DNA of 64,000 bases from Aurantiochytrium sp. KH105 (lineage: Eukaryota > Sar > Bigyra > Thraustochytrida > Thraustochytriidae), in the NCBI GenBank assembly GCA_003116975.1, contig BGKB01000097.1:1-64000 (forward strand), read 5' to 3'. The position numbers were made by a program, and so were the translations under genes. Below the pieces are notes generated by a model, which saw only the letters and a program-made list of their open reading frames with translations, was not told the DNA's origin and did not search any database. Position 1 is the stretch's first letter. The number at the start of each line of letters is the position of its first letter. This document shows, piece by piece, positions 58,196-63,330 of the stretch.

Positions 58196-61100
58196 ATGCA
58201 GCGCTCGCTTTCGTCCGGGCTCAACGAGGGCCTCCGCATCAAGGACCCAAGCCAGCTGGAGCCTCTGCGCGAGGGAGACAGCGGCGACGACGACGATGAC
58301 GATGACGAGGAGATTGACGACAACAAATCCGACGAGGATGTCGTTGTGAAAGCTGCCCATGAGGCCGCGCAGTTTTCACCGCGCAAAGCCTGCGCAGAGG
58401 AGGTCATGTCCTTTTCGAGGCAAAAAAATAATAATGCCCAAAATGGCAACCACGTCGAGGCCGACGCAAGTCAGCCAAATGACAACGGCGTGCTTGACAA
58501 TACTGGTGCCACCAAACCCGTCTCGAGTCCTCGTCTCTCCTCGCAAAATGCAGGCGTCTCGTCATGGTCTGACGCCGCCAAGGCGGGGAAAACCAGCGAA
58601 GCTAACGCTTCCGCCACCGCTCCAGCGTCTGCGGGATCTGACACGAAGCCTCTCGGGGCCGCAAGCAGCCCTTCAACCCTCGCCGGCGCCACGGGCAACA
58701 ATCTGGCAAGCAATGCGGGACAGGACAACGCTGCCAAAGATGATCCCATGGAAACGAATGTTGTCGAGAATGGGGCAAGCTCAGAAAAGAAGCGCGCCGC
58801 CAGCGTGAGCAGCGCGCGCGATGCGGGCGCGGCGTCCGGAAACGCAAATGACGCTGCTGCTGCTGCTACTGCTGCTTCAGCTGGTACTGTCGGTACAGTC
58901 GTGCCCAAGGAAGAGACCAAGTCTGTTCTTGACGAGGCCTGCATCGAGCTACGCAAGCACGTCCTCGAGGGAGATCTTGAAAAGGTTCGTGAAATTCTTG
59001 CTGGCATGGGTGATGCAGACATGCGCAACACCATCGTCAACTCAAACAAGGATGGCTTCAGCACGCTCATGGTCGCCGTCTCGTGCGAAAAGGGAAAGCT
59101 CGATCGGGATCTCGTGCTTGAGCTCTTGCGCGCGGGCGCCCAGGTGTCCCCCTGCGATCGTGTCGGTAACACGGCCCTGCACTGGGCTGCGCTCAACGGC
59201 CAGCTTGCCGTGCTCGATGACGTCGGCGGCAAAGACGGTAGTCTCCTTGGCCTCGCCAACAACGACGGGGACACCCCGCTCCACCTGGCCAGTCGAGCAG
59301 GCCATGCCGAGGTGGTCAAGCAGCTCATCCAGCGCATCTACGAGGCCGAGGGCCGCGGCGCAGAAATGGAGGCGACGCTCAAGGCCGAGGCCATGGAGGA
59401 AGGCGAGGGCGCAGCCGTCAAGAAAGAGGCCAAGGCCTTGACGATTTCTGCACCGACGGGCCAGAAGCTACCCGACGCCTTGCAAAAGCGCAAGGAAGCT
59501 GCACTTGAACTCATTCCTGAACAGCCCGTGAGCGAGGCGGTGCCGCCGCCTGCTCTGGTTGTCCGCAACATCGAAGGCGAAACGCCCTTTGACGCCGCGG
59601 GCAGGGATGTTTCCGGTCGCCTAAACCACGACGTGCGTCACAAGATCCAGCTCGAGTTCTGGAACTCGACAAAGTACTTTCGCACCCTCGTTCTGCATCA
59701 CCCGGACTGCTTCGACCACGTTCCCGTGGGCGACGATGACCGCGACGTCTGGGAGGCGCCGGAGCGCATCGCTGCCATTCTCGAGGAACTTTCTGGAAGT
59801 GAAAGTTTCAGTTCGGTCCTCATTAGCTCCAAGTTCGCGCAGGCGAAGCGCGACATGGTCACCAAGGTCCACACCGACAAGTACGTAAACATGGTCTACG
59901 CGCTCTCGGACGAGCTCCAGGGCAAGGATCCCGTCGCCTTTACGCCGCGGGTACAGACGGGTGTCAAACAGACCAAGTCCAAGGAAATTAAGCGCGCCGA
60001 GCATTCGGACACAAGTTTCTCCGCCGGATCGCTCTCTGCCGCGCTGCGCGCGAGCGGCGCCGTCTGCCACGCCATTGACCGTGTCGTGGGCGGCAAACAC
60101 CGTAACGCCTTTTGTCTCGTGCGCCCGCCCGGCCATCACGCCGGACTAGAGGGTCTTTTGGACTCGGCCAGCTCTTGCGGATTCTGCATCTTCAACAACG
60201 TCATGGTGGGTGCCATGCATGCGTTGGAGGCTTATCCGGACACCATTCGCCGTATCGCCATCGTAGACTTTGACGTGCATCACGGCAACGGCACGGAGGA
60301 AATTGTGTCCAAGCTCAACAAAGAAGCCATTGCTGCCCAGCGCAAACGCGGCGAGTCCGCCAGCCCGCCCATTCTCTTTTGCTCGTCGCATATGTTTGAC
60401 GGCGCGCGGCCCAGTGGCTCGTACGAGTTCTACCCAGGCAGCGGCCAGCATAGCGACGCCCTGTCCAACATCATCAACGCGCCCATGATGCCACTTTGGC
60501 GTCGGCGAGGTTCTCGCGGGGCGCGACCGGGCGCTCAGGCGGCCCAGGCGGAGCCTGAAGACCCCCTGGCTCCCAAGCGCGGCCGCCGCAACTGGGCGCA
60601 GCGCTTCTACTTTGACCACTTTGGCAGGACAGAGTTTCGCCGCATTGTCAAGGAACGTATTGTGCCCCCCGTGCGCGCCTTTCAGCCGGACCTCATTCTC
60701 GTCTCGGCCGGCTTTGATGCCGGCCGTCGCGATGTGGGCAATGGGCGTTTCATGGGCCATTTTTGCTCGGGCTTTGACTTGCAGCAGCAGGACTTTATGT
60801 GGATTGCCGGACAGCTTTCGAAGGTAGCCAATATTTGCTGCAAGGGCCGCGTCGTCTCGGTTCTTGAGGGAGGGTATGGCCGCATCGACAAGTCAATTGA
60901 TGCGCGCATGATGCGTGTCGATCGCACCTCGCTCGCCCGCAACGTCGTGGCTCACTTGGCCGGGCTCGTCAATCCACTTGCCAAGATGGACCCGGATCCA
61001 GAAGAGTCTGACTCCGAGGATGACGCTGCCAAGGAACACGAGGAAAAACAGCTGCAGCGTCGTGGACGCAACCGTAAAAAGCCCAAGCGCTTCGAGAATG

Positions 61101-61555
61101 AGGTTGCTCCCGCCAAGCGTCGCAAGCGTCGCGGTCAGGACGCAGAGGAGTCCGACGATGAGGAATCCGACTCCAAACGTCGGCGTGGTGCGCAGAATCA
61201 GTCGCAGCCGGCTGGCGCGGGAGCGGGCGCGGGCGCGGGCGCTTCCGCTGTCTCTGCTTCTTCCGGATCGGTTGGCCCTGCGGGACCTCCTGCAGCCCAG
61301 TCCAACCCTGCAGAAGCTTCGGCCGAGAAACGCGAAATGGCTCTTGCTTTTCTTCGAAAGGTCAAGATCAGATTTGCGCACGATGACTCCGTGTACCGCG
61401 ATTTTCTTGTCATCATGGGCCACTTCAAGTCGCGTACTCTTCAGGTGCCCGAGGTGATTCGCGAGGTCAGACGCATCTTTAATGGCGACCCGGAACTTAT
61501 GCGAGAGTTCAATGACTTTTTGCCGCCCGGGTACAACGCCGCCAATCCTAGTTAG
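58196..61555 (+). CDS. Class II histone deacetylase with ankyrin repeats and a C-terminal PAH (Sin3-type) domain
   Basis: 1119 residues from ATG 58196 (MQRSLSSGLNEG); the frame also runs 90 codons upstream through basic low-complexity sequence. The N-terminal ~245 residues are Ala/Ser/acidic and disordered. Ankyrin repeats (about 249-384) include VGNTALHWAALNGQLAVLDD and GDTPLHLASRAGHAEVVKQL. The deacetylase domain (about 495-895) has LVRPPGHHAG, CGFCIFNNVMVGA, the zinc-binding DFDVHHGNG (691-699; Asp693, His695), SAGFDAG and EGGYG, all intact, and an Arg/Ala/Glu-rich insertion between the HDAC motifs (encoded about 60500-60600). An acidic/basic linker follows, then MALAFLRKVKIRFAHDDSVYRDFL...FNDFLPPGY (about 1044-1115), a paired amphipathic helix of the Sin3 kind. 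It should remove acetyl groups from histone or other lysines in the nucleus. The fusion of catalytic and Sin3-type recruiting domains in one chain is unusual. Confidence 0.9.
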   Translation: MQRSLSSGLNEGLRIKDPSQLEPLREGDSGDDDDDDDEEIDDNKSDEDVVVKAAHEAAQFSPRKACAEEVMSFSRQKNNNAQNGNHVEADASQPNDNGVLDNTGATKPVSSPRLSSQNAGVSSWSDAAKAGKTSEANASATAPASAGSDTKPLGAASSPSTLAGATGNNLASNAGQDNAAKDDPMETNVVENGASSEKKRAASVSSARDAGAASGNANDAAAAATAASAGTVGTVVPKEETKSVLDEACIELRKHVLEGDLEKVREILAGMGDADMRNTIVNSNKDGFSTLMVAVSCEKGKLDRDLVLELLRAGAQVSPCDRVGNTALHWAALNGQLAVLDDVGGKDGSLLGLANNDGDTPLHLASRAGHAEVVKQLIQRIYEAEGRGAEMEATLKAEAMEEGEGAAVKKEAKALTISAPTGQKLPDALQKRKEAALELIPEQPVSEAVPPPALVVRNIEGETPFDAAGRDVSGRLNHDVRHKIQLEFWNSTKYFRTLVLHHPDCFDHVPVGDDDRDVWEAPERIAAILEELSGSESFSSVLISSKFAQAKRDMVTKVHTDKYVNMVYALSDELQGKDPVAFTPRVQTGVKQTKSKEIKRAEHSDTSFSAGSLSAALRASGAVCHAIDRVVGGKHRNAFCLVRPPGHHAGLEGLLDSASSCGFCIFNNVMVGAMHALEAYPDTIRRIAIVDFDVHHGNGTEEIVSKLNKEAIAAQRKRGESASPPILFCSSHMFDGARPSGSYEFYPGSGQHSDALSNIINAPMMPLWRRRGSRGARPGAQAAQAEPEDPLAPKRGRRNWAQRFYFDHFGRTEFRRIVKERIVPPVRAFQPDLILVSAGFDAGRRDVGNGRFMGHFCSGFDLQQQDFMWIAGQLSKVANICCKGRVVSVLEGGYGRIDKSIDARMMRVDRTSLARNVVAHLAGLVNPLAKMDPDPEESDSEDDAAKEHEEKQLQRRGRNRKKPKRFENEVAPAKRRKRRGQDAEESDDEESDSKRRRGAQNQSQPAGAGAGAGAGASAVSASSGSVGPAGPPAAQSNPAEASAEKREMALAFLRKVKIRFAHDDSVYRDFLVIMGHFKSRTLQVPEVIREVRRIFNGDPELMREFNDFLPPGYNAANPS

Positions 61556-61986: not shown

Positions 61987-62781
61987 TTATTCGACGGTGT
62001 CGAGACAAGATCCCACCTTTCTGTAGCACAGCCGATAGTCGTTGCTTTGAACAATATCGTCGATGGCCTTGGTATAGATGCGACAGGTTCCAGCAGGGAA
62101 TGCCATGTCGTACTCGATAAGTCTCGTGTTGGTAATTTCGAGTTCGAAACCAGTGCACGATTCCTGACTGTTGCACTCTTGTTCGCATTCTTCCACCAGG
62201 CACTCTTTGCCGTACGCACAGCTCACTGCCTTTGCCGGCCGAACATTGACGCTTTTCTTCTTGTTCTCTTTCCATTTGCCACACTTGCCCTCGCCCAGTT
62301 CAAGGAAATTGTACTTGCAACCGCTAGGAGGTTTGGAGCCAACATCTTTGCACGATGCAAGGACGCAGGTACTCGCAGCGGAGGAAGCTGCCTTGCTCGC
62401 GGTCACCTGCCCAGTAAAGAGAAAGCACATTTGGGTCTCCTCGTCGTACGAGATGGCGGAGCAGTCGCTCCCGCCATGGTTCTTTCGAACGGTGCAAAGG
62501 AGACGACAAGCGTTCTCGGACTTGAGCTTTTTCGATGTAGGCTCTTCGTCTCCTGAAGGTAGACAGGGACCTTGACCAAGCTCTTCGAATACAGTATTGC
62601 ACTTGAGCTTGCCCGCGAGCTGCTCCACAGCCGCGTGGCTAAGCACAGTGTCCGAAGCGGCGAGCTCCTCGACTATTTCTGTTCGCAGGCTCGTTGCACT
62701 TCCCCCGTTGATGGAGGCTGCAAGCGCGATCAGCGCGAGTAGCGCTGCCGCCATCAGGCGGGCGCTTCGTTGCAGCAGCAT
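61987..62781 (-). CDS. Secreted cysteine-rich protein with PAN/Apple-like repeats
   Basis: 264 residues from ATG 62781, which gives a signal peptide (MLLQRSARLMAAALLALIALAA); a longer frame from ATG 62961 would bury it. The mature part has about 17 cysteines in two related units, each beginning with an 'LGxGxC' motif (FEELGQGPC, FLELGEGKC) followed by C-x3-C and a CxxxxYD/CTGFELE segment, as in PAN/Apple-type domains that bind protein or carbohydrate outside the cell. Catalytic features are absent. The neighbouring gene at 63331 has the same units, so the two form a tandem family. The ligand is unknown. Confidence 0.75.
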   Translation of the reverse strand: MLLQRSARLMAAALLALIALAASINGGSATSLRTEIVEELAASDTVLSHAAVEQLAGKLKCNTVFEELGQGPCLPSGDEEPTSKKLKSENACRLLCTVRKNHGGSDCSAISYDEETQMCFLFTGQVTASKAASSAASTCVLASCKDVGSKPPSGCKYNFLELGEGKCGKWKENKKKSVNVRPAKAVSCAYGKECLVEECEQECNSQESCTGFELEITNTRLIEYDMAFPAGTCRIYTKAIDDIVQSNDYRLCYRKVGSCLDTVE

Positions 62782-63330
62782 ATCGCAGGGCAACGCGTCC
62801 GCTTTCTGTTTGCGCTCCTGCGCTTCTGCGCTCCCGCTGCCTCGGGTTTGCGCGGCGCGCGCTAGGTTTTGTTTTTGCGGGCTGCTCGGCTCTGCTTTGT
62901 TATACTCGGTCAAAAATGAAAGAGAACACGCGATTTGTGGGAGTCCGCTCGCACCCGACATTACTTGGCGTGCTTTCCGAAACTCGACAATCAGGAACGG
63001 CTTGTGGTGGCGATTAGGCCTATATACACCTGGCTACTGGCTAGCCGAACAAGGCAAGCAATCTGGATTGATGCCGGATCTTGGATTTAATCACACCAAG
63101 AAAAGAGACACCAGGGGTCAAAACAAGGTCCAACACTTTTAATTTTTTTTCGTTCGCCAAACGTGCACCAAGACAGGATCGCGATAGATCCTACTACGAT
63201 AGAAGACTCGTAAATGATTTACTTTTTTTCTCCCTTTCAGATTCTTATTTCGAACCGATCTGCTCAAAGAGAAGACAAAGGGGCAGGATTGATTGGTGAG
63301 TATCACCGATTGGCAGCGACACGAGGCCTC
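62782..63330. other. Spacer between the two PAN-like genes
   Basis: About 550 bases; contains the alternative upstream start (62961) of the first gene and an otherwise empty, AT-richer stretch. Confidence 0.5.

Follow-up and report, generated by a model that had tools for sequence, protein, structure and literature searches.

An open reading frame on the forward strand of the 64,000-nucleotide stretch of DNA analysed here (the window; its contig is referred to as C97) runs uninterrupted from an ATG at 58196 to a stop at 61555 and encodes a protein of 1119 residues (Table 1), in agreement with the single frame described in the initial annotation. In a Pfam search of the whole protein, ankyrin repeats (Ank_2, E=4.4e-13, best stretch residues 256-339) are followed by a Hist_deacetyl domain and by a PAH domain (E=9.4e-12, 44.9 bits, residues 1066-1109). 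Because ankyrin repeats precede its class II-type Hist_deacetyl domain, this ANK-HDAC-PAH protein is an ankyrin-HDAC; with a single PAH and no Sin3_corepress domain (PF08295) in the Pfam search, it lies outside the Sin3 family. The four-part architecture is established by sequence analysis, and Pfam, the active-site motifs and the PDB relatives support the combination of ankyrin repeats, class II HDAC and C-terminal PAH that had been claimed. The linker between the deacetylase and the PAH contains basic clusters (KKPKR at 961, KRRKRR at 974 and KRRR at 994) that could possibly act as a nuclear signal.

Table 1 Features of the ANK-HDAC-PAH gene (window coordinates).
Feature	Coordinates	Strand	Basis or remark
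ANK-HDAC-PAH ORF	58196..61555	+	1119 aa plus stop; second copy on C56; codon bias
Low-complexity N-terminus, probably disordered, residues 1-235	58196..58900	+	most changed segment between copies
Ankyrin repeats, residues 256-382 over several Pfam models	58961..59341	+	Pfam
Hist_deacetyl domain, residues 520-895	59753..60880	+	Pfam (whole protein) E=7.1e-61; PDB relatives
His647-His648 of RPPGHHA, putative active-site His pair	60134..60139	+	motif
Asp693 and His695 in VDFDVHHG, putative zinc ligands	60272..60280	+	motif
Low-complexity stretch within HDAC domain, residues 769-808	60500..60619	+	identical in both copies
Asp841 in SAGFDA, putative zinc ligand	60716..60718	+	motif
Tyr894 in LEGGYG, putative catalytic Tyr	60875..60877	+	motif
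Acidic/basic linker, residues 921-1040	60956..61315	+	length differs between copies only in whole codons
C-terminal PAH1-like domain, residues 1040-1119 (Pfam core 1066-1109 = 61391-61522)	61313..61552	+	Pfam, PDB, model

A second copy of the gene is found on contig C56 (L009:699-4058). It encodes 1120 residues in which Pfam again finds the three domain types, arranged as in the window copy, and the two contigs are 95.2% identical over a 5453-column alignment spanning the gene, which argues against an assembly chimera. The ATG at 58196 is likely the start of the gene, because in the C56 copy the frame opens, after a stop, 23 codons before this ATG; in the window copy the frame stays open further upstream. 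A codon bias model trained on Sin3 and six HDACs, seven other ORFs from this genome, gives its highest values in the ANK-HDAC-PAH frame across all segments, PAH included (0.29 to 0.44 bits/codon). The remaining forward frames are negative (-0.38 to -0.80), as are all three forward frames of the flanking controls, and on the reverse strand one frame reaches, in places, values of at most 0.13. An intron or a separate gene for the C-terminus is disfavoured by this coding bias and by the in-frame conservation of the two copies. The neighbouring ORF (61987-62961, reverse strand) is convergent and encodes a Cys-rich protein of 324 residues.

Across 1117 aligned codons, the two copies differ by 19 amino-acid and 52 synonymous changes (dN 0.0079, dS 0.070, dN/dS 0.11), which shows, at the level of sequence, that constraint acts on the protein between them. 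The amino-acid changes fall on 12 of 235 codons in the N-terminus, 1 of 270 in the ankyrin segment (236-505), 2 of 415 in the HDAC and 4 of 118 in the linker. The PAH has no amino-acid and three synonymous changes in 79 codons; the copies diverge little, and constraint on the PAH alone rests on these three changes.

The deacetylase domain contains the active-site residues of HDACs, with His647-His648 as the putative His pair, Asp693/His695 (Asp-x-His) and Asp841 as putative metal ligands and Tyr894 as the putative catalytic Tyr. Of 64 PDB matches at E<=1e-10, the best 60 comprise class II HDACs and further enzymes of the deacetylase fold, with HDAC6, Hda1, Clr3, HDA15 and HDAC4 among them, and none of these 60 bears the name HDAC1, 2, 3 or 8. 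A tree of 14 deacetylases was built from 13 sequences of the same genome and one bacterial sequence, the sole outside reference. It draws on 11 of the 12 HDAC locus pairs (C85/C83, in which the motif filter found no ORF, were left out), and both copies are included for C97/C56 and C51/C172 only. In this tree, C51/C172, C58b and C74 form a group with the two ANK-HDAC-PAH copies (support 96/95), and C2, C17, C80 and C87, which carry class I-like motifs, lie beyond a 100/100 branch. These comparisons support a class II-type catalytic domain, nearer to class II than to class I. That the low-complexity insert within the domain is an intron is disfavoured by the identity of residues 769-808 in both copies, the sole two amino-acid differences of the HDAC region being at positions 818 and 836, and by the positive codon bias of the tested stretch 778-832. 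By eye, the paralogues C51 and C58b have low-complexity stretches of different sequence at about the same place, which further counts against an intron.

The C-terminal domain is recognized by the Pfam PAH model (PF02671) also when the last 77 residues are searched alone (E=1.6e-13, 50.6 bits). The curated cut-off of this model is 21.3 bits, against which the whole-protein score of 44.9 bits and the score of 50.6 bits, more than twice the cut-off, are to be read; the significant PAH match on which the proposed fusion depended was thus found. Structure prediction, a check suggested with the initial annotation, gave a four-helix bundle for the PAH alone (AlphaFold2, single sequence; best pLDDT 87.9, averages of 77.3 to 87.9 over five models). 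The top Foldseek match of this model is mSin3B PAH1 bound to NRSF (2czy; E 4.9e-5, TM 0.77/0.80, rmsd 1.4, 48% identity), and the four of 82 matches that reach E<=0.001 are all Sin3 PAH domains. The fused PAH is therefore predicted to have the four-helix bundle fold of Sin3 PAH, and a chance PAH-like pattern is rejected by Pfam, the PDB scores, the predicted fold and Foldseek.

Among PAH subtypes, sequence comparison supports a PAH1-like domain, closer to Sin3 PAH1 than to PAH2 or PAH3. The PDB single-domain Sin3A/Sin3B PAH1 chains score 56.6-60.8 bits against the fused PAH, and the other single-domain Sin3 chains among the PDB matches listed, which are presumably PAH2, score 25-38.3 bits. Identity to the genome's own Sin3 is 32/70 for PAH1, 20/69 for PAH2 and 13/64 for PAH3. 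The own PAH1 and yeast PAH1 are identical at 41 of 66 positions, and the fused PAH matches these two at 32/65 and 29/65; because the two are closer to each other than to the fused PAH, the latter is a relative of PAH1 that is either old or has changed fast. Nine short PAH domains combined in a tree did not separate these two possibilities, and the tree gave no resolved placement of the fused PAH, with PAH1 or elsewhere. At the compared helix-2 position, the fused PAH and the own PAH1 have Met and the own PAH2 has Leu; a Leu-to-Met change in PAH2, assumed here to be equivalent to this column, cuts Mad1 affinity seven-fold (PMC7948954). The fused PAH also keeps the Ala and Lys aligned with A126 and K155 of human Sin3A, a mapping checked only by the 29-residue spacing of the two; A126V and K155E lower Tet1 or SAP25 affinity, to different degrees (PMC13068551). 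By our numbering, the position of Sin3A R120, a proposed ligand contact (PMC6168491), is Ala in the fused PAH and Gln in the own Sin3.

The genome (76 Mb, 367 contigs) was searched for both domains. HDACs form a large family, with 26 matches at 24 loci, and because these loci fall into 12 pairs of near-equal score, the assembly seems to contain homeologues or both haplotypes. PAH is found at 10 places. The Sin3 pair C104/C113 accounts for six of them, three per copy, and its C104 member has Sin3_corepress and Sin3a_C besides the three PAH stretches. Two more belong to the ANK-HDAC-PAH pair, and the remaining two lie at the C-terminus of a long Q-rich protein (C44/C122). This protein, encoded by a 1.8k-aa ORF at L057:1298-6685 (+), or C44:164797-170184, with its C122 copy at L058:1298-6631 (-), has a single weaker PAH at its end (Pfam E 4.3e-5 in the part of C44 scanned) and is thus, besides the fused HDAC, another protein of this genome outside Sin3 that bears a lone PAH at the C-terminus.

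At least two ankyrin-HDAC pairs in the genome, C51/C172 and C74/C174, are without PAH; Pfam covered the window copy, C56, C51, C74, C58b, C17 and C47, and further ankyrin-HDACs may exist. Like the window protein, C51 and C74 combine ANK with Hist_deacetyl by Pfam, as C172 and C174 do by sequence, and C51 is 41.6% identical to the window protein over 502 residues. Unlike the window contig, the contigs of these paralogues have no PAH match in the genome search. Two such genes are located at L043:1675-5043 and L044:2500-4833; both copies of the C74/C174 pair have one N within the frame (L044:2266, L055:5402), so that one residue there is unread. Outside this genome, oomycete class II HDACs with three to four ANK repeats have been described and likewise carry ankyrin repeats and a class II Hist_deacetyl domain on one chain (PMC5112689). 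In contrast to the window protein, the combinations described there are ANK or PHD/AP2/Med27, and the word PAH is absent from the main text of that paper. Because of the paralogue pairs without PAH and the oomycete ankyrin-HDACs, an ankyrin-HDAC without PAH looks like the usual form of the family, and the PAH would then have been added to a single paralogue or else lost from the rest. In open-licence papers, searched by titles and abstract starts, no PAH on an HDAC was found among the matches listed. Given the oomycete proteins in PMC5112689, the ankyrin-HDAC half of the architecture is not new.

The architecture has been seen in one genome only. In genome_contigs, one of 44 pattern stretches was confirmed as an HDAC locus, and it is bacterial. 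In viral_contigs, none of four stretches was confirmed for HDAC and none of seven for PAH; with an alignment of four HDACs of the present genome as the query, 9 of 53 were confirmed (26-30% identical in the best segment). Yeast Hda1 and the class IIb enzyme HDAC6 are among the best solved relatives of the window catalytic domain, and neither is known to have ankyrin repeats or PAH. In the Sin3/Rpd3 (HDAC1/2) complex, Sin3 bears several PAHs one after another, and deacetylation is the task of a distinct protein of class I. This separation of the PAHs of Sin3 from the deacetylase is also described in PMC6168491. Both systems tie a PAH1-type docking domain to histone deacetylation; in contrast to Sin3/Rpd3, the window protein has one PAH on the class II-type enzyme itself and lacks Sin3_corepress (Pfam).

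The reading that we consider probable is that of a nuclear class II-type ankyrin-HDAC with a C-terminal module of Sin3 PAH1 type that itself binds repressors carrying a SID. The hydrophobic cleft of PAH accommodates one SID helix, which may come from a repressor or from a subunit of the complex (PMC6168491). By this mechanism, the PAH cleft would bind the amphipathic SID helix of sequence-specific repressors, and repressors that otherwise call Sin3 would bring the enzyme to promoters or target genes without Sin3. The ankyrin repeats would bind a second partner, and the protein would run beside the own Sin3 and may compete for its ligands. Direct docking to PAH-binding repressors, as first suggested in the initial annotation, is a fair inference, and we likewise infer SID binding, a nuclear location, a histone substrate and independence of Sin3. 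Speaking for this reading are the Pfam, PDB and Foldseek matches of the PAH, its predicted fold, its identity to the own PAH1, the Met, Ala and Lys at the compared positions, the active-site motifs and the dN/dS of 0.11. Counting against it are the Ala at the R120 position, the outcome of the nine-PAH tree, the greater distance of the fused PAH from the PAH1s, the small divergence of the two copies and the occurrence of the architecture in a single genome.

The main rival to direct docking is membership of a Sin3-like complex, in which the PAH would bind a SID-bearing subunit of the SAP25 type and the HDAC would be an extra stable member. PAH1 is described as binding complex subunits such as SAP25 too (PMC13068551, PMC6168491), and the C104 Sin3 of this genome has its three PAHs together with Sin3_corepress and Sin3a_C. 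Both points are consistent with this rival, which we regard as unlikely. The PAH could instead bind an amphipathic helix of its own chain or of another copy, which would hold the enzyme shut or dimerise it. The long low-complexity N-terminus and the linker could supply such a helix, and we consider this arrangement quite improbable. A PAH that has been joined on passively or is decaying, or a fault of the gene model or assembly, would accord with the finding of the architecture in one genome. Opposed to this are the presence of the architecture on two contigs of the similarity given above, the coding bias, which runs to the stop, and the retention of the predicted fold and of the compared cleft positions. 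Such an explanation is held to be extremely improbable.

The protein may be a self-recruiting corepressor enzyme, a wider proposal that we make tentatively. Gain of a PAH1 would have freed one ankyrin-HDAC paralogue from the Sin3 scaffold and let it tap the whole set of PAH1-binding repressors, so that repressors would reach deacetylation by a further route alongside that through Sin3, one served by an enzyme of class II type instead of class I. In the systems studied, the repressor-docking domain and the deacetylase are on separate proteins that are joined by Sin3. If PAH and HDAC are naturally fused, docking through the PAH would seem to be enough to direct an HDAC, and the class I enzyme would seem replaceable by one of class II type. 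The fusion also provides a simple system of two components in which PAH1 specificity can be examined beyond animals and fungi.
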